A stretch of 64,000 nucleotides of DNA from Actinomycetota bacterium. Lineage in GTDB: Bacteria; Actinomycetota; Actinomycetes; S36-B12. This document shows, one piece after another, positions 3,870 through 64,000 of the stretch. The notes below the pieces were generated by a model, which was not told where the DNA came from, did no database searches, and worked only from the letters and a program-made list of their open reading frames with translations. A program made the translations under genes and the position numbers. Numbering within the stretch: position 1 is the first letter of the stretch; the number at the start of each line of letters is the position of its first letter. The stretch spans positions 1 to 64,000 of the forward strand of contig SYJA01000003.1 in the NCBI GenBank assembly GCA_005798555.1. Reading direction: 5' to 3'.

Positions 3870-5234
3870 ATGACCCGCATTGCCCGGCTCGATGTCGAGA
3901 CCCTCAAGCGCGAAGTCGAGGCCGGCAATATCGACACCGTCGCCGTCGCCATCACCGACATGCAAGGGCGCCTGCAGGGCAAGCGGATTCACGCACACTA
4001 TTTCGTTGACGAGGTCCTGGGCCATGGCACCGAGGGCTGCAACTACCTCCTTGCCGTCGACGTCGACATGAAAACCGTCGATGGCTACGCGATGTCATCG
4101 TGGGAGACCGGTTACGGCGACCTAGTGATGCGCCCCGACCTTGGTACCTTGCACTACCAACCGTGGCAGCCCGGCACCGTTGGGGTGTTATGCGATGTGC
4201 TCTGGCAGGACGGCTCCGAGGTCGTCGCATCACCGCGCCAGATCCTGCGAAGGCAACTCGCTCGCCTGGCTGATGCGGGTATGGGTGCCTTCGTTGGCAC
4301 CGAGCTTGAGTTCATCGTGTTCATGGATTCCTATGAAGAAGCATGGGAGAGCGGGTACCGCGACCTGACTCCCGCGAATCTTTATAACGTTGATTACTCA
4401 ATGCTCGGCACCGCACGGGTCGAACCACTGCTTCGCCGCATCCGGAATGAGATGACCGCAGCCGGCATGACAGTTGAAAGTGCCAAGGGCGAGTGCAATC
4501 TCGGACAGCATGAGATCGCCTTCAAGTACACCGATGCACTAGCGACCTGCGACAACCATGTGGTTTACAAGACCGGGGCTAAGGAGATAGCCGCCCAAGA
4601 AGGCGTTTCTCTCACCTTCATGGCCAAGTTCAATGAGCGCGAGGGCAGTTCCTGCCACATTCACCTATCCTTCCGCGGCAACGACGGCTCGATGGTGATG
4701 GCTGATGATAACGACCCGTCTGGGATGTCGGCGTTGGGTAAAGCATTCATCGCCGGTCAGTTGGCACATATTGATGAACTCACGCTGCTCTACGCACCCC
4801 AGATCAACTCTTATAAGCGCTTCGTCCCCGGTTCCTTCGCGCCAACAGCGGTGCGCTGGGGTCGCGATAACCGCACCTGCGCTTTCCGGCTTGTCGGCCA
4901 CGGTCAATCACTTCGCCTTGAGAACCGAGTTCCAGGCGGTGATGTAAATCCGTATCTCGCCGTCGCCGGGATGATCGCTGCCGGCCTAGATGGCGTCGAG
5001 CGCAACTTGCCACTGGAGCCGGAGTTCGAAGGCAATGCCTACTCGAGTGCTTCAGCCCATGTGGCTTCTGACATGCGCGACGCCCTCGAGCTCTGGGAGT
5101 CCTCGACCTGGATAACCGACACCTTCGGTGCCTCGGTGCAGGAGCACTACTCGAATATGGCGAGGGTGGAACTAGCCGCCTTCGGCAAGGCGGTTACCGA
5201 CTGGGAGCGCTATCGCAGCTTCGAACGCCTCTAG
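3870..5234 (+). CDS. Glutamine synthetase family protein, probable gamma-glutamyl-amine ligase (PuuA/GlnA3-like)
   Basis: GTELEFIVF, GECNLGQHEIAFKY, GSSCHIHLSF, RWGRDNRTCAFR, ENRVPGGDVNPYLA GS motifs; flap segment is PGSFAP rather than PGxEAP. Confidence 0.92.
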   Translation: MTRIARLDVETLKREVEAGNIDTVAVAITDMQGRLQGKRIHAHYFVDEVLGHGTEGCNYLLAVDVDMKTVDGYAMSSWETGYGDLVMRPDLGTLHYQPWQPGTVGVLCDVLWQDGSEVVASPRQILRRQLARLADAGMGAFVGTELEFIVFMDSYEEAWESGYRDLTPANLYNVDYSMLGTARVEPLLRRIRNEMTAAGMTVESAKGECNLGQHEIAFKYTDALATCDNHVVYKTGAKEIAAQEGVSLTFMAKFNEREGSSCHIHLSFRGNDGSMVMADDNDPSGMSALGKAFIAGQLAHIDELTLLYAPQINSYKRFVPGSFAPTAVRWGRDNRTCAFRLVGHGQSLRLENRVPGGDVNPYLAVAGMIAAGLDGVERNLPLEPEFEGNAYSSASAHVASDMRDALELWESSTWITDTFGASVQEHYSNMARVELAAFGKAVTDWERYRSFERL

Positions 5235-5276
5235 ACCCAGCACCCTCACCGCCGAATTCACTACTCAGGAGACGAA

Positions 5277-6635
5277 ATGCACGCCGTAATCAACCCCGCT
5301 ACCGAAGAGGTAGTTGCCAAGATCGCGGCAACTTCCGCTGAGGAAGCAGACCACGCCATCGCCAGAGCACATGCGGCATTTGACTCCTGGCGTGCCATCG
5401 CGCCTGGCGATCGAGCGAATCTGCTGCGCAGGTTTTCTGATGTAGTACGCGAGCATGTTGAGGAACTGGCGTTGCTTGAAGTCAAGAACTCCGGTCACAC
5501 CATCGGCAATGCCCGCTGGGAGGCCAATAACGTCGCGAACGTCCTGAACTACTACGCCGGCGCCCCGGAGCGGCTCTTCGGGCAGCAGATCCCGGTGCCG
5601 GGGGGAGTCGACATAACTTTCAAGGAGCCACTTGGCGTGGTCGGGGTGATTGTGCCGTGGAACTTCCCGATGCCAATTGCCGGCTGGGGGTTCGCGCCCG
5701 CCTTGGCCGCAGGGTGCACCGTGGTGCTGAAGCCAGCGGAGCTAACTCCCCTCACCGCCATCCGCTTGGGTGAATTGGCCCTTGTCGCAGGTATCCCGGA
5801 AGACGTCTTCAGCGTCCTACCCGGCAAGGGATCGATCGTGGGTCAGCGGTTCGTTGACAACCCGCTCGTGCGCAAAGTGGTTTTCACCGGGTCAACATCG
5901 GTGGGTGCGGCAGTCATGGCCGGATGTGCATCACAAATCAAGCCGGTAACCCTTGAGTTGGGCGGCAAGAGCGCGAATATTGTTTTCGCCGACGCCGATA
6001 TCGAGAAAGCCGCGGCCACCGCGCCGTATGGGGTGTTCGATAACGCCGGCCAGGATTGCTGTGCGAGATCACGCATCTTGGTGCAACGCTCAGTACTAGA
6101 TCGATTCATGGGGCTGTTAGAGACCGCCGTCAAGGGCGTCGTCGTTGGCGACCCGACACTCGAGCAAACCGAGATGGGTCCACTTATTTCACGCGGGCAA
6201 CATGACACTGTTTCTTCGTATGTGCCAAGCGATGCCCCCGTCGCATTCCAAGGTAGTTGCCCAAGCGGGCCGGGCTACTGGTTCGCCCCGACCGTTCTGG
6301 CCCCGGTAGCGCCCAGTGCCCGGGCATTTCGCGAGGAGATTTTCGGCCCGGTTGTTGTGGTGACCGCCTTCGAGGATGAAGCAGATGCGATCGCCTTGGC
6401 AAATGATTCAGAGTTTGGGCTTTCAGGCTCCATCTGGACGCGAGATGTCGGTCGCGCCCTGCGTGTTGCCCGTGGAGTCGAAGCCGGCAACCTCTCGGTG
6501 AACTCCCACTCCTCGGTTCGCTACTGGACCCCGTTCGGCGGCTTCAAGCGCTCCGGGCTCGGCCGTGAACTCGGCCCTGATGCACCAGATGCCTTCACCG
6601 AAACCAAGAATGTTTTCCTGAGTACCGAGGACTAA
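5277..6635 (+). CDS. Aldehyde dehydrogenase family protein (PuuC/betaine-aldehyde type)
   Basis: GVIVPWNFPMPIAGW, VTLELGGKSANIVF, FDNAGQDCCARSRILV (catalytic Cys), EEIFGPVVVV, PFGGFKRSGLGRELG. Confidence 0.94.
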   Translation: MHAVINPATEEVVAKIAATSAEEADHAIARAHAAFDSWRAIAPGDRANLLRRFSDVVREHVEELALLEVKNSGHTIGNARWEANNVANVLNYYAGAPERLFGQQIPVPGGVDITFKEPLGVVGVIVPWNFPMPIAGWGFAPALAAGCTVVLKPAELTPLTAIRLGELALVAGIPEDVFSVLPGKGSIVGQRFVDNPLVRKVVFTGSTSVGAAVMAGCASQIKPVTLELGGKSANIVFADADIEKAAATAPYGVFDNAGQDCCARSRILVQRSVLDRFMGLLETAVKGVVVGDPTLEQTEMGPLISRGQHDTVSSYVPSDAPVAFQGSCPSGPGYWFAPTVLAPVAPSARAFREEIFGPVVVVTAFEDEADAIALANDSEFGLSGSIWTRDVGRALRVARGVEAGNLSVNSHSSVRYWTPFGGFKRSGLGRELGPDAPDAFTETKNVFLSTED

Positions 6636-6679
6636 GTTCACCACCAGCAGCGATCCCACTTATTAGGAATTGAGGAATC

Positions 6680-7459
6680 ATGAGTGACAGCAACTGCCGC
6701 AGACTCGTTGGTCGGGTCGCGGTCGTAACCGGCGGGGCCAGTGGCATTGGCCTGGCAACGGTTCGACGGTTCGCTGACGAAGGTGCACTTGTCGTCATCG
6801 GTGACGTTGACCCGACAACCGGTGAGGCCGCCGCGGCCGAAGTCGGCGGCCTATTCATCAAAACCGATGTCACTGACGCCGACCAGGTCGCTGCCATGTT
6901 TCAGGCGGCGAAGGATACCTACGGCAGCGTAGACATCGCCTTCAACAATGCGGGCATCTCACCACCCGATGACGACTCAATCTTGGAGACCGGCATCGAC
7001 GCCTGGCGTCGAGTCCAAGAAGTCAACCTCACCTCGGTGTTTCTTTGCTGCAAGGCGGTGCTGCCCTACATGCTCGAGCAAGGCAAGGGTTCGATCATCA
7101 ACACGGCTTCATTCGTAGCCACCATGGCCGCCGCCACTTCGCAGATCTCCTACACGGCCTCAAAGGGCGGTGTCCTCGCAATGAGCCGCGAGCTCGGCGT
7201 GCAATTCGCACGCTCCGGGGTGCGGGTCAATGCCCTTTCCCCCGGACCGGTGAACACTCCTTTGCTGATTGAGCTCTTCGCCAAGGATCCGGAGCGCGCA
7301 GCTCGTCGCCTAGTCCACATTCCGTTCGGCCGCTTTGGTGAGCCCGATGAGATTGCCGCCGCGGTCGCCTTCTTGGCCAGCGATGACTCGTCGTTTATCA
7401 CCGCAGCTAACTTCTTGGTCGACGGTGGGATCTCCGGGGCGTACGTCACCCCGCTATAA
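6680..7459 (+). CDS. SDR family oxidoreductase
   Basis: TGGASGIG Rossmann motif, NNAGIS, YTASKGG active site, VNALSPGPVNTPL. Confidence 0.93.
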   Translation: MSDSNCRRLVGRVAVVTGGASGIGLATVRRFADEGALVVIGDVDPTTGEAAAAEVGGLFIKTDVTDADQVAAMFQAAKDTYGSVDIAFNNAGISPPDDDSILETGIDAWRRVQEVNLTSVFLCCKAVLPYMLEQGKGSIINTASFVATMAAATSQISYTASKGGVLAMSRELGVQFARSGVRVNALSPGPVNTPLLIELFAKDPERAARRLVHIPFGRFGEPDEIAAAVAFLASDDSSFITAANFLVDGGISGAYVTPL

Positions 7460-7460
7460 A

Positions 7461-7512
7461 AACCTGCTCGCTCCGTCAAAAATCGCCACGGAAATGACGG
7501 ATCGAGCAGGTT
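7461..7512. terminator. Bidirectional terminator-like hairpin between convergent genes
   Basis: AACCTGCTCG-CTCCGTCA (7461-7478) pairs with TGACGGA-T-CGAGCAGGTT (7495-7512). Confidence 0.75.
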
Positions 7513-7530
7513 CAAGGACCGGGTTAGCGG

Positions 7531-8241
7531 TCAGGTGCGGTAGCTGCTCGCCGCGGCCAAGAAGGCGCCGATCAGGTTCGCATCGGGAACCCTGCGGTCT
7601 GGGTGCTCCGGATGCCACTGCACCCCGAGGCAGAAGTCAGCGCCCAAGTCCTCGCAAACTTCGATGGTGCCGTCAGCGGCCCATCCGGTCACCGTTAGAT
7701 CACCGGGGCTGTCAATGCCTTGGTGGTGCGAGGAGTTGACGGTGGTTGCGGTGGTGCCCATTACCTGGGCAATGAGCGAACCGGGGGCGAAAGTGGCTTC
7801 GTGTTCCACGAACTGCCCGGGCACTTCACGGTGCACCGTGGCCAGCCCCAGATCGGGCAGGTTCTGGATCAGCGTGCCGCCGTGTGCCACCGCCATGATC
7901 TGCAGGCCGCGGCAGATACCCAGCACGGGCATCCCGCGCTCCCGTGCCCCTCGGTAGAGCAAGGTTTCAGATTCATCCCTTGACTCACGTGGCGCATCCG
8001 CCGTCCCATGGGGTGCGGCGCCGTAGCGGCGTGCATCGACGTCGGCGCCGCCAACGAGTACCAAGCCGTCAAGGCGGTCCAAGGCGTCGGCGTTGGTCGC
8101 AGGGGGTAGCAACACGATCCGCCCACCGGCATCTTGGAACAGGTCTAGATACCAGTGCGGGAGTTCGGCCGCCTTGATATCCCAAGCCCCCCATTTGGCC
8201 TGCTCGAAGTAGACGGAGACACCGACCACGGGCGCTGACAT
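7531..8241 (-). CDS. Gamma-glutamyl-gamma-aminobutyrate hydrolase family (peptidase C26, PuuD-like)
   Basis: VLGICRGLQIMAVAHGGTLIQNLPDL nucleophile elbow; NSSHHQGID; FCLGVQWHPEHP. Confidence 0.92.
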   Translation of the reverse strand: MSAPVVGVSVYFEQAKWGAWDIKAAELPHWYLDLFQDAGGRIVLLPPATNADALDRLDGLVLVGGADVDARRYGAAPHGTADAPRESRDESETLLYRGARERGMPVLGICRGLQIMAVAHGGTLIQNLPDLGLATVHREVPGQFVEHEATFAPGSLIAQVMGTTATTVNSSHHQGIDSPGDLTVTGWAADGTIEVCEDLGADFCLGVQWHPEHPDRRVPDANLIGAFLAAASSYRT

Positions 8242-49398: not shown

Positions 49399-49431
49399 AA
49401 ATGAGACTTGGCACGTGGTACAAATAGCACC

Positions 49432-50586
49432 GTGAAATGGGTGGAAGATCCGCAGCACGAAGACCTCAGGTCCGGTGTCCGCCAAGTCTGCTCTGGTTTC
49501 ACCGGCAGTTACTGGCGCGATCTTGAACCCGATACGTATCCGGCGCAGTTTGTTGAAGCCATCACCCAAGCCGGCTTCCTTGGCGCCTTGATACCCGAGG
49601 AGTACGGCGGTGGCGGAGCCACGCTGACGGAGGCCTCGGTGATCTTGGAGGAGATCGCAGCCTCAGGCGGCAACCCGGCTGCTTGCCACGCGCAGATGTA
49701 TGTCATGGGTACCGTGCTGCGTCACGGCAGCGTCGAGCAGAAACTGCAATACCTGCCGGAGCTCGCGGCCGGTCGGCTGCGCCTGCAGGCCTTCGGAGTT
49801 ACCGAGCCAGGTGCGGGTTCGGAGACCACGCGGATTAGTACCCGGGCCGAGAAGGTGCCCGGTGGCTGGCGAATCAACGGTCAGAAGATCTGGACATCGC
49901 GGGCCCTTTATTCCGATCTGATGCTGCTCTTAGCACGAACCACGCCTTATGAGGAGTGCGCGAAACCGACTGAAGGTCTCTCGACATTCTTAGTTGACAT
50001 GCGCAACGCCGAAGGCATCACCATTAATCCGATCAAGACAATGATAAATCACAGCACTACCGAAGTTTTCTTCGAAAATGTCGTAATCCCTGACGCGGCA
50101 TTAGTTGGCGAAGCTGGTAACGGCTTTCGCTACATCCTGGACGGCATGAACGCAGAGCGCATCCTGATTGCAGCTGAATGCATCGGCGACGGCAGGTACC
50201 TGCTCGAGAAAGGCGTCGACTATGCCAATCAGCGAATCGTCTTCGATCGCCAAATCGGCTCGAATCAAGGGGTTCAGTTTCCGCTGGCTAAGGCCTATGC
50301 CCAATTACGTGCGGCCGATCTGGTGCGTTTTGACGCAGCCGCTAAGTACGATGCGGGTAAATCATGTGCCACCGAGGCCAATATGGCAAAACTCCTTGCC
50401 TCCGATGCTTCATGGGCTGCCGCAAACGCCGCAATGGATACCCACGGCGGGTTCGGATTCGCCGTCGAGTACGACATCGAAAGAAAATTTCGGGAGACCC
50501 GGCTCTATCAAGTTGCACCTATCAACAACAACCTAGTTCTGGCCTATCTCGGACAGCATGTCCTTGGGCTGCCCAAGTCCTACTAG
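49432..50586 (+). CDS. Acyl-CoA dehydrogenase
   Basis: IPEEYGGGGATLTEASVILEEIA; FGVTEPGAGSETTRISTRAEK; DTHGGFGFAVEYDIERKFRETRLYQVAPINNNLVLAYLGQ. Confidence 0.93.
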   Translation: MKWVEDPQHEDLRSGVRQVCSGFTGSYWRDLEPDTYPAQFVEAITQAGFLGALIPEEYGGGGATLTEASVILEEIAASGGNPAACHAQMYVMGTVLRHGSVEQKLQYLPELAAGRLRLQAFGVTEPGAGSETTRISTRAEKVPGGWRINGQKIWTSRALYSDLMLLLARTTPYEECAKPTEGLSTFLVDMRNAEGITINPIKTMINHSTTEVFFENVVIPDAALVGEAGNGFRYILDGMNAERILIAAECIGDGRYLLEKGVDYANQRIVFDRQIGSNQGVQFPLAKAYAQLRAADLVRFDAAAKYDAGKSCATEANMAKLLASDASWAAANAAMDTHGGFGFAVEYDIERKFRETRLYQVAPINNNLVLAYLGQHVLGLPKSY

Positions 50587-50619: not shown

Positions 50620-52062
50620 TCAGATGGGCAGGCCAGGCCGGTCGACACCGACTATCTGGGCTCCGCAAAAGAACCGGAAGACATCCCGATCACCGTGGCC
50701 GCCCAATCCGCTGCCCCGCCAAAAACTCTGCACCGACTCCGGGCTCAGGTCCAACAAACTGGTGCCATTGACTTTCACCTCACCGAATCTAATGCGGCGG
50801 GCCACCGCCATAGCCGCATCGATATCAGTGCCGAAGACATAACCGGCCAGGCCATAAGGCGAGGAATTGGCGAGGTCAATAGCCACGTCGATGGGGCTGG
50901 TCGCGTGAACCGTGACCACCGGGCCGAATAGCTCATCAACGCAGAGTCCTTCAGGCGCGTCGGTTACTACCACTGGCGGCCAAAACCATCCGGGTAAATC
51001 CGGGGCGGTATGCACTTGGTGCGCGGTCGCGCCGCCGCGCACTAGACCGTCAACCCGAGACTGCAACTGTTCACGGTGGTCTCGATGCGCGAGCGGCCCC
51101 ATTAACGCAGCCGGATCATCATGGGCCCCGATCACCACACCCCCCAGTTCCACCAGCAGGGCGCTAACAAGCGCGCGCTCAAGGGCTGGCGGTACGAAGA
51201 TTTTGCCCGGCCCTTCGCACCATTGCCCATTAAGCTTGGTCATGCCGGTGGCGATGCTTTTCGCCGCCTGGTTGATATCCGCATCAGGCATGATGATCAC
51301 CGGGTTATTACCGCCTAGTTCTAGTTGTACTGCCTTGAAGTCCGCGGCCGCGGCGATGGCGATCGCCCGCCCTGTGGTGACCGAACCGGTGAACGAGATA
51401 CACCTAATGCGCGGATCGGTCGTTAACTGAACGCCGACATCAGCACCGCCATGCACCAGCTGGAAAACCCCGCCCGGAAGCCCTGCTGCCGCGATGGCTT
51501 CGGCGAGCACATTGCAGCCAAATGGTGCCCGCTCCGGTGGCTTGAGAATTACCGGAGCCCCTGCTGCAAGTGCGTATGCGCACTTTTTTGCAGCCATCGC
51601 CGCTGGGGCATTCCATGGCACCAGCACGGTGGTCGGACCCCAAGGAATACGAAGGATTTCTACCGGCCTATCGATCTCGCCGACCTGCTGGACTAGTACG
51701 CCGCTTCGCATCTGCTCGACCGCGTCGCGAAAGGATCCAGCCAACGAACCGCCAAATAGTCGGGCGATGGATATCACAACACCCGACCCCAATGACTCAG
51801 CCGCCCCGATCCGATCACCGCGTTGATCCAACTCATCGGCCACGCGCAGCAGGGCCGCCGCACGGTCATCGATGCTCTGCAGGCGCCACGAACCGGCCTT
51901 ATCGATTCGGTCCGCGGCCGCGATGGCGCGATCGACCTCGGTTGGATCCGTTTGGGCAACTTTTGCGATGAACTCACCGGTGGACGGGTTGGTCAGTTCG
52001 ATCTCCACAGTCTGGCTTGGCAAACACCGCACCCCGTCGATTAGATCGAGTTGAGATTCCAT
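50620..52062 (-). CDS. Aldehyde dehydrogenase family protein
   Basis: TTVLVPWNAPAAMAAKKCAYALAAG; VQLELGGNNPVIIM; NGQWCEGPGKIFV catalytic Cys; ELFGPVVTVHA. Confidence 0.92.
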   Translation of the reverse strand: MESQLDLIDGVRCLPSQTVEIELTNPSTGEFIAKVAQTDPTEVDRAIAAADRIDKAGSWRLQSIDDRAAALLRVADELDQRGDRIGAAESLGSGVVISIARLFGGSLAGSFRDAVEQMRSGVLVQQVGEIDRPVEILRIPWGPTTVLVPWNAPAAMAAKKCAYALAAGAPVILKPPERAPFGCNVLAEAIAAAGLPGGVFQLVHGGADVGVQLTTDPRIRCISFTGSVTTGRAIAIAAAADFKAVQLELGGNNPVIIMPDADINQAAKSIATGMTKLNGQWCEGPGKIFVPPALERALVSALLVELGGVVIGAHDDPAALMGPLAHRDHREQLQSRVDGLVRGGATAHQVHTAPDLPGWFWPPVVVTDAPEGLCVDELFGPVVTVHATSPIDVAIDLANSSPYGLAGYVFGTDIDAAMAVARRIRFGEVKVNGTSLLDLSPESVQSFWRGSGLGGHGDRDVFRFFCGAQIVGVDRPGLPI

Positions 52063-52063
52063 C

Positions 52064-53446
52064 TCAAATATTCTCAAAGTAGCGCTCGAGCTCCCAATCG
52101 GTCACCGCGCGCTGAAAGCACTCCCACTCCCACGCCGCCGCTGACCCATACTGCTCGACGACTGCAGGTCCAAAGTTGCGCATGATGAACTCACTTGCGG
52201 TAAAGCGCTCCGCGGCGGCGCCCAGATGTTTCGGGAACTGCTCGGTAGCCGACTTCACCTGGTACGCATCACCGGTGCGCTCCGGACCCGGATCAATATC
52301 GCGCTCAATACCGTCACCAACCGCGGCAAGGAGCCCGGCAATCGCCAGATAGGGGTTGATGTCGGCGCCCGGTACCCGCCATTCAACCCGCATTGATGCC
52401 GGGTCGGTGCCGAGTACCCGACATGAGACCGTGCGGTTGTCCACCGCCCAAGTTGCCCCGTGGCCGGCGAAGTCACCTGAATTGGTGCGCCGGTAGGAAT
52501 TGATGGTCGGCGCGTACCAAGCCATCAAATCCGGTGCGGTTTCCAAGATGCCGCCCATTACCTGACGCATTGTGTTGCTGATGTGCTGTGGTTCGTTATC
52601 GGACCACATTACTTGTGCCGCAGGCCCGGATCCCTCGAGATCGCGAAGTGACAAATGGATGTGCCCAGACGACCCAACGCCGTCGGCCTGTGGTTTTGGC
52701 AGGAAGGTAGCCGAGAGGCCGGCTTGCGCGGCAACATCCTTAACCGCCAACTTGAAAAGCACATGACGGTCCGCCATATCCAGGGCATCCCCGTAGGTGA
52801 GGTTGATCTCCCATTGCCCCAAGCCCCACTCACCCTGGCTCATCTCGACGTTCATCCCGGATTCGTCCAAAACATTGCGCAGGCGCCGGAAGAATGGTTC
52901 CCAATTGTTGACCTGCTGAACGGTGTAGTCGGAATGAATCAGGGTGCTTGGAGTTCGGGTGTGATAGCCCGCCTGCCGCAATCGGTCATAACTCTCACGA
53001 TAAAGATGAAACTCTAATTCGGTGCCAACCCCTGCTGCTAACCCACGCTCAGCCAACGCGGAGACCTGTCGCTGCAGGATCCTTCGGGGGGTGATCTCCA
53101 CCGGGGAACGATCATGCTCCTCGACGATGTCGGCGAGCACAATCGCGGTGCCGTCAAGCCACGCCGCATTGATGAGAGTCGCCATATCCGGGATCAGCAG
53201 AAAGTCCCGCCAACCCGTATGCCAACCTGCATACGCTGATTGGTAGCCAATGTCCTGTGGGAGATCCCAGCCAAATGTGCAGGCCGAGACCGCGATCCCG
53301 CGCTCCGCGAACTCGGCCAATCGCTTCGGCGCCAATCGCTTGCCGATTAGTCGTCCATGCATGTCAGGTGCAGCTATAATTACGGTGTCGAAGTCGCCGG
53401 CTTGCAAATCCTGCATGGTCAGCACATTCATCATCTGGTCAGCCAC
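52064..53446 (-). CDS. Glutamine synthetase family protein, probable gamma-glutamyl-amine ligase
   Basis: PDMHGRLIGKRL; GVGTELEFHLY; GEWGLGQWEINLTY; GSSGHIHLSL; flap GDFAGH; DNRTVSCRVLG; EWRVPGADINPYLA. Confidence 0.92.
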   Translation of the reverse strand: MADQMMNVLTMQDLQAGDFDTVIIAAPDMHGRLIGKRLAPKRLAEFAERGIAVSACTFGWDLPQDIGYQSAYAGWHTGWRDFLLIPDMATLINAAWLDGTAIVLADIVEEHDRSPVEITPRRILQRQVSALAERGLAAGVGTELEFHLYRESYDRLRQAGYHTRTPSTLIHSDYTVQQVNNWEPFFRRLRNVLDESGMNVEMSQGEWGLGQWEINLTYGDALDMADRHVLFKLAVKDVAAQAGLSATFLPKPQADGVGSSGHIHLSLRDLEGSGPAAQVMWSDNEPQHISNTMRQVMGGILETAPDLMAWYAPTINSYRRTNSGDFAGHGATWAVDNRTVSCRVLGTDPASMRVEWRVPGADINPYLAIAGLLAAVGDGIERDIDPGPERTGDAYQVKSATEQFPKHLGAAAERFTASEFIMRNFGPAVVEQYGSAAAWEWECFQRAVTDWELERYFENI

Positions 53447-54192
53447 CCGCCATCAACCGCAAGTTGCGTGCCAGTTATGTACGATGCGGCATCTGAAAGC
53501 AGGAATGAGGCGGCTCGCGCGATATCTTCCGGCTCGCCGACGCGCGGCACTAATAATCGCTGACTCATAAAAGCCATGGCTTCCGGTCCGGTGATGTCGC
53601 CGCCCGTAAACCGAGTGTTGATCGGTCCCGGTGCGATGGCATTGACCCGAATGCCCATTGCTGCCAACTCAACGGCCAAAGCCTTCGTGAGCATCTTTAC
53701 CCCACCTTTGGATGCGTTGTAGTGCACCTGGCAATTGCCACTCGAGGAGACCACAACTTCGGCTTCAACGGTTGTCATATTGACCATCGCACCACCATTT
53801 CGCATGACCCGAGATGCAGCCTGGGCTACGATAAATGGGCCTTTCATGTTGATGTCAACAACAAAATCCCACTCCTCATCGGATACGGTGTCAAGGCCGG
53901 ACATCGTGACAACTCCAGCGTTGTTGACGATCAGGTCGAGTCGTCCAAAGGTGTCAAGGACGTCGGCTAGTGCCTTTTCAACCGCCACTCGGTCGCGAAC
54001 ATCGGCAACTAATACCGCAGCAGAACCGCCTGCATCAGTGATGAACTTCGCTGTCGCTTCGGCAAGTTCCATCTTGATATCGACGCAGGCGACGGAGGCT
54101 CCGTCATCAGCCAGTTGTCTTGCGATGGCCCGCCCGATACCTGAGCCAGCTCCGGTGACGAACGCCACTTTGCCACTATGGTCAATGATCAT
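53431..54192 (-). CDS. SDR family oxidoreductase
   Basis: VTGAGSGIGRAIA, NNAGVV, YNASKGG, VNAIAPGPINTRF. Confidence 0.92.
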   Translation of the reverse strand: MIIDHSGKVAFVTGAGSGIGRAIARQLADDGASVACVDIKMELAEATAKFITDAGGSAAVLVADVRDRVAVEKALADVLDTFGRLDLIVNNAGVVTMSGLDTVSDEEWDFVVDINMKGPFIVAQAASRVMRNGGAMVNMTTVEAEVVVSSSGNCQVHYNASKGGVKMLTKALAVELAAMGIRVNAIAPGPINTRFTGGDITGPEAMAFMSQRLLVPRVGEPEDIARAASFLLSDAASYITGTQLAVDGGWLTR

Positions 54193-54932
54193 GATCTGCT
54201 CCCATTTTTCGATTCTGAAATAAGCCAATTGAAAATAGGATCAACGCCGGCATGCATTTCGGGGTGCCACTGAACGGCGAGCACTTTGACTTCAGTGGAT
54301 TCAACGGCCTCGATCGTGCCATCTGACGCCCAAGCCACGATTCGCAGTCCTTGTCCAGGTTCGTCGATAGCCTGATGGTGGTAACTGTTGACCGCCGCGT
54401 TGCCCTCGTTATCCACCTCGGCGCCGAGTGCCACCCTCAGCATCGACTCCGCAGCAACCGCGACCTTGTGCCTTCGAGTCGAACGGTACTCCTGCGTGTC
54501 AGCATGTGAGAAGCCATCAACTTCGGGCAGGTGCTGTATCAAGGTGCCACCCCGCGCGACATTCACCACCTGGCAGCCGCGACAGATGGCGAGAATCGGG
54601 ATTCCGCTTTCAATTGCCGCGGAGACCAATCCGAATTCGAATTCATCGCGTTCCCGGTCATGCTGCGTGGATTCAGGCACCGGCTCCATGTTGTACCGGT
54701 GTGGATCGACATCCTCGCCGCCACTGAGCAGTAATCCGTCAAGGCGCGTGACAATGTCACGTGGGTTCACTGACCGAGGAATCATTACCGGTATTCCGCC
54801 GGCGCCACTCACCGCTTCGCAATAGTCAGCGAACACCCCCCACAGGTGCGCACCGTCGATACCTTTGGGGACGACCCCTAATCCACTTGCCTCGATAACC
54901 CGAGTGGTGATCCCGATGAGGGGCGCTCTCAT
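54189..54932 (-). CDS. Gamma-glutamyl-gamma-aminobutyrate hydrolase family (PuuD-like)
   Basis: LSGGEDVDPHRYNMEP; ILAICRGCQVVNVARGGTLIQHLPEV; VLAVQWHPEMH. Confidence 0.92.
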   Translation of the reverse strand: MRAPLIGITTRVIEASGLGVVPKGIDGAHLWGVFADYCEAVSGAGGIPVMIPRSVNPRDIVTRLDGLLLSGGEDVDPHRYNMEPVPESTQHDRERDEFEFGLVSAAIESGIPILAICRGCQVVNVARGGTLIQHLPEVDGFSHADTQEYRSTRRHKVAVAAESMLRVALGAEVDNEGNAAVNSYHHQAIDEPGQGLRIVAWASDGTIEAVESTEVKVLAVQWHPEMHAGVDPIFNWLISESKNGSRS

Positions 54933-55651
54933 GAGGAACCCGTCTCGCGAATTATTGCGTGTAGGTTCCGCAGGGTCTCGTCCATGTGCGCCCGAGCCGC
55001 CGAGGCCGCGGCCACCGCGTCACCATCAACAATCGCTTCATAGATGGCGGTGTGTTGCTGGCGGGTTACCTCGACTCGCTGCTCATAAGGCAGGTTGTCG
55101 GTCGGCAGGAACAATTCAGCGCGCGCTCGCCGTGATGCCTCGGTCAACCGCTCATTGCTGGCCGCTGCTGACACCGCGGCATGGAATTGCCCATCGGCTT
55201 CACGAAATGCACCGTATGAAAATCCGTCACTGGTAAGCACGGCGCCTGGCAGTGCTGCGATCGCAGTTCGCATCGCCTGCAAATCCGAGTCCGAGCGCCG
55301 CAGCGCAGCCAACGAACAGATGTGCTGCTCAATGGCCGATCGAAAGTCGATTAACTCCTCCATATCCGGGAGGTTTTCCCGAAGGAGTTCACGCCAAACT
55401 GAGACCGGGGTACTCGGCTCAACTACGAAGCTACCGCCGCGAGCACCCCGGCGAGTGACCAGGTAGCCCTCGGCTTCTAGATGCGCGATACCCTCACGCA
55501 CCGCCTGCCGGCCGACCCCTAACTCAATTGCCAGTTGGCGCTGGGCCGGGAGTCGGTAGCCCACGCCCCATTCACCGCAGGCGATGCGCTCACGCAGGTA
55601 GGCCGCAACCTCCTGGCCCGTCCGCACCGTCTGCAACTGTCTCATATCCAT
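54929..55651 (-). CDS. FadR-type GntR family transcriptional regulator
   Basis: VGYRLPAQRQLAIELGVGRQAVREGIAHLEAEGYLVTRRGARGGSFV wHTH; helical FCD C-terminus. Confidence 0.92.
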   Translation of the reverse strand: MDMRQLQTVRTGQEVAAYLRERIACGEWGVGYRLPAQRQLAIELGVGRQAVREGIAHLEAEGYLVTRRGARGGSFVVEPSTPVSVWRELLRENLPDMEELIDFRSAIEQHICSLAALRRSDSDLQAMRTAIAALPGAVLTSDGFSYGAFREADGQFHAAVSAAASNERLTEASRRARAELFLPTDNLPYEQRVEVTRQQHTAIYEAIVDGDAVAAASAARAHMDETLRNLHAIIRETGSS

Positions 55652-56602: not shown

Positions 56603-57060
56603 CGCTCGCCGACTGGTCGTGATGGGGATACCCACCCGCTGCTATCAAATGGTGGAGCGAGGGGTTCAAACGGCCCATACTCAGTCTGCACCTGGCGAAA
56701 GTGGTCGCGCGCCCGATACTGCTCATGCTCCCATCACTTCGGGCAAATGTTCCATGAGGTGCAATCGCATGATATCGACGCCCGGTGCAATCACGGCGCC
56801 CGAGCGCAGCCAGGACGCTGGTCAGCGCATACATTCCGGCGGAGATATCAGCGACTGCGCAGCCTCCCTTGCTCATTCCCTCATCGCCTGGCACCGAGAA
56901 GGCGCCAGCTAGCGACGCCTGCAGCAGGCGTTCGTCACCTGGGTTGCGCGGATCCATCGCCACCGACTGCTTGCCCACATTCGCCCAGACGAAGAAGGCC
57001 AAGTTGCCTTTCACTAAGGAGTCGTAGTGCCGTGCGAAATAGCCTGTTTGACCGGGACAA
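56590..57060 (-). pseudogene. Remnant of a CaiB/BaiF family CoA-transferase
   Basis: Open frame GYFARHYDSLVKGNLAFFVWANVGKQSVAMDPRNPGDERLLQ, then MSKGGCAVADISAGMYALTSVLAALGRRDCTGRR; a C-terminal-like VQTEYGPFEPLAPPFD lies in another frame. N-terminal and catalytic regions absent. Confidence 0.72.
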
Positions 57061-57089: not shown

Positions 57090-57809
57090 TCAGTCACGGG
57101 CCAGTTCCAGTAGTTGGATGCCAGCGATATCTTTCATGAACCACTCAACCAAGGCATCGCAATTCGCTCGAAGTTGCGCCCCCGCCTCGCCGATGTCCCC
57201 GAGGACTTCAGCCGCCGACGTATGACTTGGTATGTGGTCTGGACCGATAGCCGCCCAGCCACTTACCAGCCCAAGATCAGCCTCGGGATGGAATTGGGTG
57301 CCCACCGCGCGGCCGGATCGAAACAGCTGAACGGCACTTGGGGTACTCGCCAACAACTGGGCGGACTCCGGGATGACCATGCGATCCTCGTGCCAGGTGA
57401 ACCAAGGCCCGGCCGGAATCGGCAGCACCTCGGCTCCTGAATTCAGGTAGATAAGGCCAATCTCGGCTGCACCGGTAGGCGCCGGCTCGACCTGGCCGCC
57501 GAGGGCTTCGGCAAGGAGTTGACCGCCAAAGCAGACACCAAGGTAGGGGATGTCCAGGTCCACAAGTTTTGCAATGTGCTCGATCTCCGGGCCCACCCAC
57601 GCGCGAGCCGATGTCTCGTAGGCATTGGCGAAGGAACCGAAAGCGATCACCGCGTCGTATTCACCGGGGTCGGGGAAGTCAAGATTGGGCGCCGCCGGAT
57701 CAGCAAGCACTATGTGCTGCTCGGTCTGGACGCCACGTAGTGCCAATATTTCACCGATCATTCCTGGTGCAGCTTCGGGCTCATGACTGATTAGCAGCAC
57801 TCGCGCCAT
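57090..57809 (-). CDS. Class I glutamine amidotransferase (GMP-synthase-like)
   Basis: DIPYLGVCFGGQLLAEALGG nucleophile Cys; VGTQFHPEAD; abuts the upstream GS gene (57809/57810). Confidence 0.92.
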   Translation of the reverse strand: MARVLLISHEPEAAPGMIGEILALRGVQTEQHIVLADPAAPNLDFPDPGEYDAVIAFGSFANAYETSARAWVGPEIEHIAKLVDLDIPYLGVCFGGQLLAEALGGQVEPAPTGAAEIGLIYLNSGAEVLPIPAGPWFTWHEDRMVIPESAQLLASTPSAVQLFRSGRAVGTQFHPEADLGLVSGWAAIGPDHIPSHTSAAEVLGDIGEAGAQLRANCDALVEWFMKDIAGIQLLELARD

Positions 57810-59159
57810 CTAGATAACCCCTCGATAGCGTTTGATCTCCCACTCACTTACCTGATCCGGCGGGCCCTGCCCGTGCTCCGCGAACTCGGCAGCCTCACGG
57901 CGCTGCATGAAGACGAAGTTATCGACAAACACATCCCCATAGGTGCTGCGGGTGAATTCACTATCAAAATTATCTATCGCACCTGTTAGCTCAGTTGGCA
58001 GCCGCTGCCATCCTTCATCGGCATGCGGGTCTCCGACCACCTGATCCATCAGGTCATAAGCATGCTCGAGCCCGTCCATGCCAGCCGCCAGACACCCGGC
58101 TAACACTAGGTACGGGTTAGCGTCGGCCGCCGCCCAGCGGGATTCCAGACGGTTGGCCGCACCCGCTCCAGTGATTGACCGCACCCCGACCAGCCGGTGA
58201 TCAAGGCCCCAGGTGACCTGGGTCGGCGAGAAGGAGTAGTCCTGCAGGCGCTTGTAGCCGCTGACGGTCGGGGTCATCACCAACTGCAACTCCATATGGT
58301 GCCTCAACAGCCCGGTTAGGTACTTGCGCATCAAGGAGTTGCCAATAATCGAATCCTCATCGGCTAGCGCGAACGCATTGACACCGTCACGTTCAAGTGA
58401 CTGATGTATATGCATGCCGTTACCGGCTTCTTGGAGAAACGGCTTGGCCATAAAGGTGGTGTTGATTCCATGTTTCTTGGCCACCGTACGCACTATGTAC
58501 TTGAAGTAGACCGTGGCATCCGCCATCTCGAGCAGGGGACCGTACCGCAGATTAATCTCGGTCTGGCCCGGGCCATATTCCACGTTCCAGGCCTCAACTT
58601 CAATACCGGTCTTGCGAAGGGACTCGCAGATATCGTGCATGAAGTAGTTCATCTCTGCGCCACGTGCTATCGAATAGCAGTTTATGTCGTCATATAACGG
58701 CTCCCACTTCTCGGTGAAGAAGTGGCACTCGAGCTCGGTAGCACCATTTACTGAAAACCCGGCCGCCGCAAACTTCGCCAACTGCTTCTTGAGCATGTTG
58801 CGAGCGTCCATCTGGATTGGCGCATTGGTACCCGGGTGCACGGTGTCGCAGATGACGATGGCCACGCCCTCCGTCCAGCCGGCCACCCGAAAGCTAGACA
58901 GATCGGGCACCGCGTGCATATCGGGAAAGCCATCCTCCTCATTGACCCAAGGGGTGGCGAAGATGAAGCAAGTTGGATCCCAACTGTAGACGACATTTGC
59001 GATCGCGTAACCCGAGCCTCGTAGGAACTGCCGCACCGGAATTCGCTTACCGCGCGGGATGCCCCAGGTGTCAACGATCACACACTCCACCGTGTGAATG
59101 CGATGCTCCTCGCAAAGCGCGGCAACCCGGTCGCGTTCAGAGGCATCCCAGCCGGACAT
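57810..59159 (-). CDS. Glutamine synthetase family protein (third paralogue)
   Basis: VDTWGIPRGKRIPVRQF; GATELECHFFTEKW; YGPGQTEINLRYGP; GNGMHIHQSL; flap YSFSPTQVTWGLDHRL. Confidence 0.92.
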   Translation of the reverse strand: MSGWDASERDRVAALCEEHRIHTVECVIVDTWGIPRGKRIPVRQFLRGSGYAIANVVYSWDPTCFIFATPWVNEEDGFPDMHAVPDLSSFRVAGWTEGVAIVICDTVHPGTNAPIQMDARNMLKKQLAKFAAAGFSVNGATELECHFFTEKWEPLYDDINCYSIARGAEMNYFMHDICESLRKTGIEVEAWNVEYGPGQTEINLRYGPLLEMADATVYFKYIVRTVAKKHGINTTFMAKPFLQEAGNGMHIHQSLERDGVNAFALADEDSIIGNSLMRKYLTGLLRHHMELQLVMTPTVSGYKRLQDYSFSPTQVTWGLDHRLVGVRSITGAGAANRLESRWAAADANPYLVLAGCLAAGMDGLEHAYDLMDQVVGDPHADEGWQRLPTELTGAIDNFDSEFTRSTYGDVFVDNFVFMQRREAAEFAEHGQGPPDQVSEWEIKRYRGVI

Positions 59160-59175
59160 CAGGCCTCCATTCCAG

Positions 59176-59199
59176 GTGCCAATTGCACTTGATCGATCA
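59176..59199. promoter_or_regulatory. Palindromes in the GS / ADH-P450 divergent promoter
   Basis: TGATCGATCA (59190-59199) perfect palindrome next to GTGC-CAATT-GCAC (59176-59188). Confidence 0.35.
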
Positions 59200-59286
59200 T
59201 TAATACCGGGCTAAATGTAGTGTTCCACTTGGCCGGCAACGGGCATTCCAGCATTTTTCCATCGTATTTGGCGAGTAGGGAGACAA

Positions 59287-60261
59287 ATGCGAGCCGTCAT
59301 CTTGACCGCACCGGGTACACCGCTCGGCATCCAGGAGGTGCCGACGCCGACCGCAGATCCGGGCGGGGTTGTTGTTGACGTACTGGCCTGCGGGGTCTGC
59401 CATTCGGATCTGCACGCGGCCGCCGGCGACTACCCGACCGCACTGCCTATTACCTTGGGCCATGAGGTTGCAGCCATGCATCCAAAGCTTGGCCCGGTCT
59501 TGGTTTATGCCTGCTGGGGTTGTCGCAAACCAGACTGCTGGGCCTGTTCCTCGAAGCAAGAGATGATCTGCCCCAATGCCACCGAGGCCGGGCTTTTTCG
59601 CGATGGCGGGTATGCCGAAAAGATGTTGGTACCGGACGAGTACTACCTGATCCCCATCGGCGACCTTGACCCGGCGCGCACCGCGCCACTGGCGTGCGGT
59701 GGCCTCACTGCTTACCGAGCCGTAGATCACACGCTGGCCACCTTGGCTGCCGCCCCACATCCCCGGGCCCTTGTTATCGGCGCCGGCGGGTTGGGCCAAT
59801 TCGCCCTGCAATTCGCCAAGATTCGCTCGGCTGCCCAGGTGGTCGTTGTTGATGCCGCACCGGAGAAGCGTGCCCTCGCACTAGCCCTCGGCGCGGACGC
59901 TGCCGTAGCACCCGGTGAAGTCGAGGGCACCTTTCATGCGGTGATCGACTTTGTCGGAGCAGAGCAAACTTTGCAGACCGCACGTGACCACGTGGCGCGC
60001 CAGGGGATCGCGGTCGTGGTTGGGCTCTATGGTGGCGCCATCCCGTTCGGCTTCGGATTGGTGCCGCATGAGGCCAGGTTCATGTCATCAATTTGGGGCA
60101 CCCGCGACCAACTTGCTGACCTAGTTGCGTTAGCGCAGCAGCACGACCTGCACTCCGAGATCGAGGTGGTTGCGCTCGAGGACGCCCAGTTGGCCCATGA
60201 CCGACTGCAGCGCGGCGAGGTTTCCGGCCGATTCGTGATCGTCCCCGGGGCACCCGAGTGA
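59287..60261 (+). CDS. Zinc-type alcohol dehydrogenase family protein
   Basis: ACGVCHSDLHAAAGDYPTALPITLGHE; YACWGCRKPDCWACSSKQEMICPNA; VIGAGGLGQFALQFAK. Confidence 0.92.
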   Translation: MRAVILTAPGTPLGIQEVPTPTADPGGVVVDVLACGVCHSDLHAAAGDYPTALPITLGHEVAAMHPKLGPVLVYACWGCRKPDCWACSSKQEMICPNATEAGLFRDGGYAEKMLVPDEYYLIPIGDLDPARTAPLACGGLTAYRAVDHTLATLAAAPHPRALVIGAGGLGQFALQFAKIRSAAQVVVVDAAPEKRALALALGADAAVAPGEVEGTFHAVIDFVGAEQTLQTARDHVARQGIAVVVGLYGGAIPFGFGLVPHEARFMSSIWGTRDQLADLVALAQQHDLHSEIEVVALEDAQLAHDRLQRGEVSGRFVIVPGAPE

Positions 60262-61487
60262 CGATCGAGTCTCTGCCCGACATCACAGATCCGGCGGTTT
60301 ATGAACGCGGAATACCACATGCGACTTTCGCTCGGCTAAGGCAGCAATCACCTGTTGCCGAACTCACTTATGCCGGCAAGCCTTACTGGGCGGTCACCCG
60401 CTACCGGGATCTGCTCACCGTCACCCGCGATGCATTCACCTACTCCAGCGCCAAGGATTTCGTCAATCTTTGGGATCTAACCGAGGAGGCCAAGGCCGTC
60501 CGCCGCTCGATAATTGAAACGGATCCGCCGGAGCATGTGCGCCTTAGACGGCTCGGCATGCCAGCCTTCACCGGCCGCCGGGTGCGTTCCTACGAGGACG
60601 CAACCCGGGCAATCACGGTTCAAATCCTCCAGCAGGCTCTTCGGCAGGGCGACATTGACGTCGTACATTCCATTTCCGCACCGCTGCCTATCCGGGTCAT
60701 CGTCGATATTTTGGGGGTGCCCGCGTCGGATACCGACTTCATGGTGCAGTTGAGCGATGAGCTAGTTGACGGCGTCGACCTCCCGGCAGCTGCCTATGGC
60801 AATGTGACGCCACTTGAACTACTGCCATTTAACTCCCCCGCCGCCCATGCCCTCTTCGAATATGCCAAGGATATCGGCGACAGGCGTCGCGCCGACCCGC
60901 ACGATGACCTGGTCTCAACCCTCGTACACTCAAAGGTCGACGGTGATCAGCTAACCGAGAATGAATTCGCGAACATGTTCCAGGTACTTGTTTTCGCCGG
61001 AAACGAAACCACCCGAACCGCTATCAGCAACGGCGTACAGCAGTTCATGCAGCACCCGGACCAGTTGGAGCTGCTCTATCAAAGACCAGAGCTGGTGGAA
61101 AATGCGGTCGAAGAGATCATTCGTTATGCCACGCCTGTTATCCACATGCGGCGCACCGCCACCCGCGACACAGTACTTGCCGGTGTGCCGATCGCAGGTG
61201 GTGACAAAGTCGTGATCTGGTACGCGTCGGCTAACTTTGATGAAACGGTATTTAATACCCCACTGACCTTCGACATATCGCGTCCGGTGCGACCCAAGCA
61301 GGTCGCCTTCGGAGCCCAGGGCCCGCACCACTGCTTGGGGGCCCCGCTCGCTCGCCTTGAGATCAGGGTGCTACTGGAAGAACTGATCCGGCTGCGGGTT
61401 AGATTCACCGCCAACGGCGAGGCGGTGCGGACCCGCTCCAATTTCGTCAACGGAATCCTGAAGTTGCCCGCCCTTATTTCAACTTGA
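60258..61487 (+). CDS. Cytochrome P450
   Basis: VLVFAGNETTRT I-helix, ENAVEEIIRY ExxR, FGAQGPHHCLGAPLARLE heme motif; GTG overlaps ADH stop. Confidence 0.96.
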   Translation: MTIESLPDITDPAVYERGIPHATFARLRQQSPVAELTYAGKPYWAVTRYRDLLTVTRDAFTYSSAKDFVNLWDLTEEAKAVRRSIIETDPPEHVRLRRLGMPAFTGRRVRSYEDATRAITVQILQQALRQGDIDVVHSISAPLPIRVIVDILGVPASDTDFMVQLSDELVDGVDLPAAAYGNVTPLELLPFNSPAAHALFEYAKDIGDRRRADPHDDLVSTLVHSKVDGDQLTENEFANMFQVLVFAGNETTRTAISNGVQQFMQHPDQLELLYQRPELVENAVEEIIRYATPVIHMRRTATRDTVLAGVPIAGGDKVVIWYASANFDETVFNTPLTFDISRPVRPKQVAFGAQGPHHCLGAPLARLEIRVLLEELIRLRVRFTANGEAVRTRSNFVNGILKLPALIST

Positions 61488-63072
61488 ACCGCTGCAGTTT
61501 GCCAGTTGCTGTCTTCGGGAGTTCGTCAACGAACTCAATCTCCCGCGGGTATTTATAAGGTGAGATGGCGGCCTTCACGAAACCTTGTAACTCATGTACG
61601 AGCCCGTCGGAGGCGGTCGCGTTAGGGGTAAGGACCACGAACGCTTTTACGATCATCCCCCGTGCCTCATCAGGCTTACCGACTACCGCAACCTCCTGAA
61701 TGGCAACATGTCCCATGAGTGCGGACTCCACTTCAGGTGCGGCGATGTTGTAACCACTCGAGACGATGATGTCGTCGGCCCGAGCTTGGTAGAAGAAGTA
61801 CCCATTTTCGTCCTTGATGTAGACGTCGCCGGTCACGTTCCAGCCAGCACGCACATAGTCGCGCTGCCGATCGTCATTTAGGTAGCGGCAGCCGGTTGGC
61901 CCTTTGACGACAAGGCGCCCGGGCTGCCCTGGTGGCATTGGGTTGAAATCGTCATCAACCACATCCGCGAGATACCCTGGCACCCCCTTACCTGTCGACC
62001 CCGGCACGATCTGCGACCCGGTGGCAGAGATGAACACGTGCAGCATCTCGGTGGCACCGATGCCGTCAACCAACGCCTGCCCGGTGGCCGCATGCCAGGC
62101 CCGCCAAGTGGGCTCGGGCAGGGTTTCCCCGGCCGAAACGCAAACCCGAAGGCTGGACAGATCTACCTCCCCGACACTTGGCAGCATGGCCCGATACGCG
62201 GTCGGCGCGGTGAAGAGGCAGGTGACCCGATGGCGCTCAATGGCTTTCAGGAGCAGCGGCGGGGCTGCTGACTCGAGCAACAGGGAGCTTGCTCCAAATC
62301 GCAGCGGGAATACCAGCAATGCGCCCAGCCCGAAGGTGAAGGCAAACGGCGGGCTGCCCGCGAAGACATCTGCGGGCGTTGGTTGCACTATTGACGCGCA
62401 AAAAGAGTCAGCAATCGCCAGCACGTCTCGATGAAAATGCATGGTTGCCTTAGGTTTTCCGGTGGTGCCGGATGTGAATGCCAGCATGCAGACATCATCA
62501 GCGGCCGTGTCCACCGGCACGTGACTACCTGCGGCACCAATCACCAACTGGTCTAGATCATTTGCATGCGTGCTGCCATAGGTCACTGTCACACCGGGAA
62601 AATTGGACACCGCAGCCCATTCATCGACGAAACGGTGGTCAACAAGGGCGAACTGCACCTGCGCGATGTCGACAATTTTCTCCAACTCCCCGGCGCGCAG
62701 CAATGGCATCGTGGTTACCGCCACGGCTCCGACGCGAATCACTGCCAGCCAGGTGACCGCCAGCCAAGGGTTGTTCGGCCCGCGCAGCAGCACCCGATTA
62801 CCGGGCACTACCCCCAAGCCCACCAGCACATTCGCGGTCCTTTGCACCCGGTCAACGAGTTGGTCGTAGGTCCAAGACTGCTCCCCATCAAGGAGGGCGC
62901 AGCCCTGGCCGCCAAATCTGGCTATCGAACCGTCCAGCAGCTCGGCCGCGCAATTAAGTCGATCGGGATAGCGCTCGGTCAACCAGGCTTCGTTGAACTC
63001 GGGCCACTGATCAGCCGGGGGGAGGTTGTCGCGGGTAAATGAGTCAAGGTGCGCAGATGGGGTCAAGCTCAC
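61474..63072 (-). CDS. AMP-dependent acyl/aryl-CoA ligase (benzoate-CoA-ligase-like)
   Basis: LAFTSGTTGKPKATMHFHRD; DGIGATEMLHVFIS; SGYNIAAPEVE; PKTATGKLQRFKLK. GTG 63072 preferred because the long ORF start overlaps a terminator-like hairpin. Confidence 0.92.
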   Translation of the reverse strand: MSLTPSAHLDSFTRDNLPPADQWPEFNEAWLTERYPDRLNCAAELLDGSIARFGGQGCALLDGEQSWTYDQLVDRVQRTANVLVGLGVVPGNRVLLRGPNNPWLAVTWLAVIRVGAVAVTTMPLLRAGELEKIVDIAQVQFALVDHRFVDEWAAVSNFPGVTVTYGSTHANDLDQLVIGAAGSHVPVDTAADDVCMLAFTSGTTGKPKATMHFHRDVLAIADSFCASIVQPTPADVFAGSPPFAFTFGLGALLVFPLRFGASSLLLESAAPPLLLKAIERHRVTCLFTAPTAYRAMLPSVGEVDLSSLRVCVSAGETLPEPTWRAWHAATGQALVDGIGATEMLHVFISATGSQIVPGSTGKGVPGYLADVVDDDFNPMPPGQPGRLVVKGPTGCRYLNDDRQRDYVRAGWNVTGDVYIKDENGYFFYQARADDIIVSSGYNIAAPEVESALMGHVAIQEVAVVGKPDEARGMIVKAFVVLTPNATASDGLVHELQGFVKAAISPYKYPREIEFVDELPKTATGKLQRFKLK

Positions 63073-63102
63073 CGCGGTGTCATCTCCCTGGGATCGCAAT
63101 GA

Positions 63103-63137
63103 GAAAGGGGCGGGCTCATCAAGCACCCGCCCCTTTC
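63103..63137. terminator. Strong terminator-like hairpin
   Basis: GAAAGGGGCGGG (63103-63114) / CCCGCCCCTTTC (63126-63137), perfect 12-bp stem. Confidence 0.85.
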
Positions 63138-63151
63138 CTTTTCGCAAGTGG

Positions 63152-64000
63152 TTAGCTCACGAAGTTATGCACCGCGTCGTAGTTCTCACTCTTCTTGCGT
63201 GTTGCGCCCACGATTAGGCCCACCACGAAGAGCACGAATGGCGACAGGACAAGAATCCAGCCGGTCACGTTCATCTCCCATGGACCACCCTCGCCGGCGG
63301 AGGTGCCGGAGAACAGGTTGAAGCGGCTCATCAGCATGTATTCGCCGATCGCCAACCCGATGATTGCCAAGATTGGCGCAATCAGGGTGTTCCAGGGCCG
63401 AGTGTCTTCCTTGGTGCGACGGAAGTAAACGATCACCGAGATACTCACCATGATTTCGGTGAGCACGATGGCCAGTACCGCAACCGCGCCGAACCAGAAG
63501 AACATATGAACGATCGGGTCCAGATTGAACAGGATGAAGATGACCGTGATCGCTACCGCCAAGATACTGACCACGATGGTCGCAATCCACGGTGCCTGGG
63601 CCCTGTTTGTGCGATCTAGTACCTTAGGCAGCACACCCGCGCGTCCCATGGCAAAGAAATAGCGCGCCGCCGAGTTCTGCATGGCGAGGCCGCCGGCGAA
63701 CAGTGAGGTCAAGATGATCCAGCCGAAGAGTTCGCTCATCCAGGCGCCCACGTAGGTGGTCGAGGCGTTGAAGAGCACCGCCGAGGGATCAGAAAGTGGC
63801 ACCCCATCGATTGCCGTCAGCTCAAACACCTTGTTGGCGATATCGGTGGCACCAAGGCTGGTGACCAACCCAAGACCCACGATCGCGAATAATGCGGTAA
63901 TCAAGATCACCGAGATATAGGTGGCCTGAGGTACCGTCTTCTTCGGATCCTTGGACTCCTCACCGTAGATAGCGGTTGCTTCGAAGCCAATGAACGAGGC
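63152..64000 (-). CDS. APC family amino-acid/amine permease (5' end beyond window)
   Basis: Frame open to base 64000 (ASFIGFEATAIYGEESKDPKKTVPQATYISVILI...), typical APC motif; multi-TM. Confidence 0.92.
   Translation of the reverse strand, partial: ASFIGFEATAIYGEESKDPKKTVPQATYISVILITALFAIVGLGLVTSLGATDIANKVFELTAIDGVPLSDPSAVLFNASTTYVGAWMSELFGWIILTSLFAGGLAMQNSAARYFFAMGRAGVLPKVLDRTNRAQAPWIATIVVSILAVAITVIFILFNLDPIVHMFFWFGAVAVLAIVLTEIMVSISVIVYFRRTKEDTRPWNTLIAPILAIIGLAIGEYMLMSRFNLFSGTSAGEGGPWEMNVTGWILVLSPFVLFVVGLIVGATRKKSENYDAVHNFVS

Follow-up and report, generated by a model that had tools for sequence, protein, structure and literature searches.

Which reaction sequence would call for a glutamine synthetase (GS)-like ligase and a class-I glutamine amidotransferase (GATase) encoded back to back with an alcohol dehydrogenase and a cytochrome P450? 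The question is raised by a locus of an Actinomycetota bacterium (assembly GCA_005798555.1, a 2.09-Mb draft genome, 85.7% complete), lying in the window analyzed here, that is, the first 64,000 bases of contig C13 (SYJA01000003.1; 69,018 bases). The likely answer, in our view, is a catabolic module in which an amine is capped temporarily with glutamate, proceeding through import, gamma-glutamylation, P450 hydroxylation, oxidation by alcohol and aldehyde dehydrogenases, hydrolysis by the GATase and coenzyme A (CoA)-dependent breakdown. Gene order, conservation, enzyme families and diagnostic residues are established below, and from these we infer each catalytic step.

On the minus strand, GS3 (57810-59159; 449 aa; PF00120, 267 bits), predicted to be a gamma-glutamyl-amine ligase, is followed by the GATase gene (57090-57809; 239 aa; PF00117, 51 bits), a probable gamma-glutamylamide hydrolase with the CFGG nucleophile and FHPE motifs present. 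According to the gene coordinates, a divergent intergenic region of 127 bp (59160-59286) separates this pair from two genes on the plus strand: a zinc alcohol dehydrogenase (59287-60261; 324 aa; PF08240/PF00107), whose closest solved relatives by PDB matches are of the Rhodococcus ADH-A type, and the P450 (60258-61487; 409 aa; PF00067), placed by trees and a PFxSP motif in a GS-linked clade. The GATase ATG comes directly after the TAG stop of GS3, and the GTG start of the P450 overlaps the dehydrogenase TGA by 4 nt; therefore, each pair is probably co-translated. An original prediction made on this window had named the same four genes at these positions, with an intact GATase abutting GS3 and a P450 translationally coupled to the dehydrogenase, and all of this could be confirmed.

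A Block Conserved Across Genera and Families

In a sample of relatives labeled Candidatus Nanopelagicales or acSTL freshwater actinobacteria, orthologues of GS3 (at least 55% identity) and of the P450 (at least 64%) were both present in 21 genomes; two held GS3 only, none the P450 only, and 75 neither (Fisher p = 2e-19, related genomes not being independent). This arrangement is far beyond chance. The genomes compared were drafts for the most part, and in one of the two GS3-only cases (G038) the contig ends inside the dehydrogenase gene. In the other (G001; L057 7388-8916), the P450 has decayed by an internal deletion that runs residues 22-60 into 315-360; a P450 of another lineage adjoins the decayed copy, and GS3, GATase and alcohol dehydrogenase are intact.

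Among 25 public contigs, which were retrieved with GS3 as query so that its presence is fixed by design, an alcohol dehydrogenase orthologue (70-96% identical) lies next to GS3 in all 25, and GATase and P450 are present wherever the contig extends far enough, except for the decayed G001 copy. The same block recurs across eight genera in two families, and two genomes from another family of the same order keep it at a GS3 identity of 55%. Outside the host's class, G465 and G489 hold an alcohol dehydrogenase, GS-GATase-CaiB, a ferredoxin and a P450 of a sister type in one cluster, which in G465 includes the reductase as well. In most genera a CaiB CoA-transferase gene follows the GATase gene, with an acyl-CoA dehydrogenase gene facing it. 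Restriction to a single strain, the outcome that would have spoken against the original prediction, is thus refuted, as the neighborhood was found across genera, families and classes and into Alphaproteobacteria. The four genes do stand as a conserved functional unit, judged by block conservation and co-occurrence, and a gamma-glutamylated amine stands as the most likely substrate of the P450.

The Ligase and the Amidotransferase

GS3 scores below the cut-offs of the GlnA, type III GS and gamma-glutamylputrescine synthetase models (220 bits vs. 650 for the last). The Puu putrescine pathway (PuuA/PuuD) resembles the module in gamma-glutamylation followed by GATase hydrolysis, and differs from it in this score and in having no P450. 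The core residues H269, E357, R359 and E212 are kept in GS3, and the ammonia-site residues are replaced (D50 by T, E327 by F); the host's own GlnA retains both of the latter. D50 and E327 are likewise lost in IpuC, NpaA1, TdnQ and PuuA, the equivalent of E327 being W in IpuC, L in NpaA1/TdnQ and Y in PuuA. An ammonia-assimilating glutamine synthetase was rejected on these two positions. With its core kept and its ammonium site hydrophobic, GS3 has the sequence expected of a GoaS-like gamma-glutamyl-amine ligase.

The original prediction had drawn its comparison with the aniline enzymes, which in the trees are not the closest relatives. GS3 falls in its own clade with proteins of G091, G465 and G489 (deep branches are weak), and both the IpuC clade (support 100/98) and the AtdA1/TdnQ clade (100/100) exclude it. 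The GATase groups with sister-module GATases and with one from a dioxygenase cluster in Rhodococcus gordoniae; TdnT and NpaA2 form a pair elsewhere (99/96), and the C26/PuuD-type GATases of the Ipu isopropylamine pathway occupy the opposite half of the tree. The outgroup consisted of E. coli puu genes. Direct orthology of GS3 or the GATase to aniline or Ipu enzymes was consequently rejected.

A Clade of GS-Linked P450s

The P450 carries functional signatures, namely the Cys-ligand loop FGAQGPHHCLG, EEIIR as its ExxR motif and AGNETT in helix I. Its best solved relatives by sequence and fold are an ancestral CYP125 (331 bits), CYP124 and CYP125, at 33-44% identity, enzymes known as sterol C26 and methyl-branched-lipid omega-hydroxylases. 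In the tree, where these are represented by two sequences only, one ancestral CYP125 and a single CYP124, the P450 lies in a separate clade next to but outside them (support 98/95). A sterol or terpene role, suggested by these matches and named in the original prediction as the finding that would overturn it, was rejected on this position and on the linkage to GS.

All 63 P450s of the clade share P190, F191 and P194 (P190-F191-x-x-P194) and an acidic residue at position 87 (E87 in the window), which are absent from CYP125, CYP124 and unlinked homologues; one member, L061_151, fails the text pattern used for motif scoring. A GS or GATase gene lies within 6 kb of 30 of the 34 motif-positive P450s vs. 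none of nine motif-negative homologues, the motif having been chosen on part of the data thus scored. In genomes outside the motif-defining set the figures are 8/9 and 0/5, and among 21 random P450s taken as background, none has GS and one has a GATase nearby. When 397 genomes from across the phylum were sampled, the best homologues (42-52% identity) mostly adjoined GS, often with a divergent GATase, and clade P450s also stand next to GS on plasmids of Mesorhizobium loti, Streptomyces canus, Sagittula stellata and Ruegeria TM1040. The clade spans Actinomycetota and Alphaproteobacteria, and we found no description of it in the open-licence literature. In Gulosibacter, PipA-type P450s (PipA/MorA, CYP151) acting on secondary amines adjoin GS genes as well, where GS was read as ammonium assimilation (PMC9477822). 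The likeness, an amine-breakdown P450 with a neighboring GS gene, is one of gene context.

In an AlphaFold2 model (pLDDT 92), residues 172-193 lie within the F-G loop, and helix G starts at the PFxSP motif. Our guess is that this loop and E87 bind the glutamyl head group. We regard as evenly balanced the wider proposal that the clade is a widespread undescribed subfamily dedicated to gamma-glutamyl-capped amines, in which loop and E87 would recognize the glutamyl head, with related modules serving for different kinds of amine, be they alkyl, aromatic or possibly sulfur-containing.

A further P450 lineage far from this clade, CYPb, also adjoins GS-like genes (L061 3735-4919, L047 2250-3413, L168 2637-3788).

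Redox Partners and a Second Module

The host encodes a single matching P450-type ferredoxin and a single close relative of its reductase, both in a second module on contig C90. The C90-type reductase occurs in 16 of the 21 genomes with the window-type module (module A) and in 11 of the 12 best. As both partners are found only on C90 and the reductase tracks module A, electrons are probably supplied in trans. The C90 set (locus L179, 1088-12678) comprises a second GS and GATase (GS', GATase'), a PFxSP P450, an acetoacetate-decarboxylase-like/MppR protein, an F420-dependent oxidoreductase, an HpaE-like aldehyde dehydrogenase, an HpaD-like (extradiol) dioxygenase and a fumarylacetoacetate-hydrolase-family protein besides the ferredoxin and reductase, and a largely similar set is present in S. 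canus. This looks like breakdown of a glutamyl-capped aromatic amine. With its ring-cleavage-type genes, the C90 module fits the idea of a P450 analogue of the aniline route better than the window module does.

Neighboring Genes

Downstream of the P450, an acyl/aryl-CoA ligase (61474-63147, minus strand) matches the benzoate-CoA-ligase family TIGR02262 at 352 bits, under the cut-off of 375, and next to it the window ends in the C-terminal part of an APC amine/amino-acid permease (63152-63910, minus strand; PF00324/PF13520), which is complete at 513 aa beyond the window edge. Both had been noted before, the ligase as aryl-CoA-ligase-like, and both stand. Among 29 module loci the ligase is a variable accessory (11/29), and the permease is present in 21, several loci being short contigs.

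On the 3' side of the GATase, three fragments (about 56632-57044, minus strand) represent a CaiB/BaiF CoA-transferase pseudogene that the earlier reading overlooked. They share 40-57% identity with the intact CaiB that occupies this position in several same-genus strains and in other genera. The acyl-CoA dehydrogenase (49408-50586, plus strand) is a conserved partner whose orthologue (73-94% identical) adjoins the module in 19 of the 29 loci, most of the remaining ones being short contigs. It scores 184 bits vs. a 3-sulfinopropanoyl-CoA desulfinase cut-off of 600 and resembles ordinary acyl-CoA dehydrogenases, and a sulfur-amine substrate for the window module was dropped on that account. Such desulfinase genes (L120 14607-15803 and L162 1031-2245; 677 and 663 bits against the NCBIfam cut-off of 600) do adjoin the P450-GS modules of M. 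loti and G362, a hint of sulfur-containing amines there. By the module-A cluster of G465 lies a homologue of the methylmalonyl-CoA-mutase large subunit (L173 2205-3827), which may point to a carbon skeleton with a branch.

Between the acyl-CoA dehydrogenase and the pseudogene, an insert of aldehyde dehydrogenase, GS2, short-chain dehydrogenase/reductase (SDR) and PuuD-type GATase (50620-54932, minus strand), accompanied by its GntR/FCD regulator (54929-55651, minus strand; PF00392 and PF07729), resembles an Ipu cluster minus the P450. Compared with Ipu proteins of strain TC1 or Microbacterium, identity is 47% for the SDR and 33-41% for the GATase, with GS2 at 36-37% to IpuC. Among the 29 loci the insert is restricted to those of the same genus. 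A similar Ipu-like set, GS1-aldehyde dehydrogenase-SDR-PuuD-type GATase, again with no P450, lies at 3870-8241 of the window; GS1 is 36-37% identical to IpuC and its cassette aldehyde dehydrogenase about 50% to an Ipu-cluster one. A fourth GS-like gene (L115 7987-9018, at the end of C13) adjoins a 357-aa protein with no Pfam match.

The Proposed Route and Its Alternatives

We propose that the APC permease would import the amine, which GS3, whose residues suit an amine rather than ammonia, would couple to the gamma-carboxylate of L-glutamate at the expense of ATP. The P450, fed by the C90-encoded ferredoxin and reductase, would then hydroxylate the organic part of the gamma-glutamylamide, as linkage and the Ipu precedent suggest. 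The coupled zinc alcohol dehydrogenase would oxidize the resulting alcohol, and an aldehyde dehydrogenase may carry it on to the acid. The GATase, with its catalytic motifs intact, would cleave the gamma-glutamyl bond and regain glutamate. Finally, either the CoA transferase, which is intact in relatives but decayed here, or the CoA ligase would activate the acid for the acyl-CoA dehydrogenase. Kinship with CYP125 and CYP124 points to a terminal or branched methyl as the site of attack, and a short or branched alkylamine is therefore our first guess for the substrate.

Several points weigh against this proposal. No ferredoxin gene adjoins the window P450, and GS3 shares only about 33% identity with IpuC. 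The case of G001 indicates that the module may survive with another oxygenase. The catalytic roles are predicted from sequence. In the aniline and naphthylamine routes, which use the same glutamate capping ahead of a Rieske dioxygenase, the GATase reverses the ligase step (PMC11335346), and the GATase here could likewise do so instead of releasing the product.

Those routes also supply the first alternative, that the module degrades an aromatic amine as a P450 analogue of the AtdA route, which we hold to be unlikely. Like AtdA1-A5, TdnQ/T and NpaA1-A5, the module sets a GS-like ligase beside a PF00117-type GATase and an oxygenase; it also has the aryl-CoA-ligase-like neighbor, and sister P450-GS modules, one of them on the host's C90, adjoin extradiol dioxygenase/fumarylacetoacetate-hydrolase or phenylacetyl-CoA epoxidase genes. 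However, the oxygenase of the known routes is a Rieske dioxygenase, and neither this nor a ring-cleavage gene was found among the annotated neighboring genes of the module, whose conserved partners are alcohol dehydrogenase, CaiB and acyl-CoA dehydrogenase; ligase and GATase moreover belong to separate clades.

The capping principle itself is known. In Paenarthrobacter aurescens TC1, isopropylamine is degraded via gamma-glutamylated intermediates by IpuC, an amidotransferase and a P450 served by ferredoxin and reductase, and the P450 hydroxylates a methyl group of the gamma-glutamylamide (PMC6776027). A P450 version of the gamma-glutamylation route can thus no longer be called undescribed, as it was at first. 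Could the locus simply be an Ipu-type pathway with swapped parts, acting on isopropylamine or a close analogue to give gamma-glutamyl-alaninol? The parts list equals that of the TC1 clusters (pTC1/pTC2) and recalls Pseudomonas KIE171, with a GS-like amine ligase, P450, GATase, amine permease and alcohol and aldehyde dehydrogenases, and few named relatives come closer to GS3 than IpuC. Yet the P450 shares about 28% identity with its Ipu counterpart and lies in a distant clade, the GATase is of PF00117 rather than the C26/PuuD type of the TC1 operons, GS3 lies outside the Ipu clade, and the GS1 and GS2 cassettes of the window are nearer to Ipu. The Ipu operon also has its own ferredoxin and reductase, for which the window P450 finds its nearest match on C90, and CaiB and acyl-CoA dehydrogenase partners mark only the window module. 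We rate this alternative as quite unlikely. P450 clade, GATase type and the alcohol dehydrogenase/CaiB/acyl-CoA dehydrogenase context differ from those of the known systems.

Alpha-hydroxylation of amides is known chemistry, and the same genes are compatible with a P450 that attacks the carbon next to the amide nitrogen, splitting the gamma-glutamylamide into glutamine and an aldehyde, with the GATase as a glutaminase. This is improbable: a glutaminase-only GATase would have no need to track the P450 clade, an alcohol-oxidizing dehydrogenase is coupled to the P450, and the Ipu precedent is hydroxylation of a methyl group. Most improbable is that GS3 and the GATase serve stand-alone amine detoxification or nitrogen salvage next to an alcohol dehydrogenase and P450 oxidizing an unrelated lipid, sterol or terpenoid, as the divergent operons and the CYP125/CYP124 matches might suggest, given the lack of P450-only genomes, the separate clade of GS-linked P450s and the closeness of GS and P450 in other gene orders in S. 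canus, Sagittula, G465 and others.

Implications

Substrates have yet to be assigned to many P450s akin to sterol hydroxylases. If our proposal is true, motif and gene neighborhood would predict which class of substrate an entire P450 branch of Actinomycetota and Alphaproteobacteria acts on, and glutamate capping before P450 oxidation would be a strategy of general use at which two or more P450 lineages have arrived. Freshwater actinobacteria would then gain a route to amines as a source of both carbon and nitrogen.

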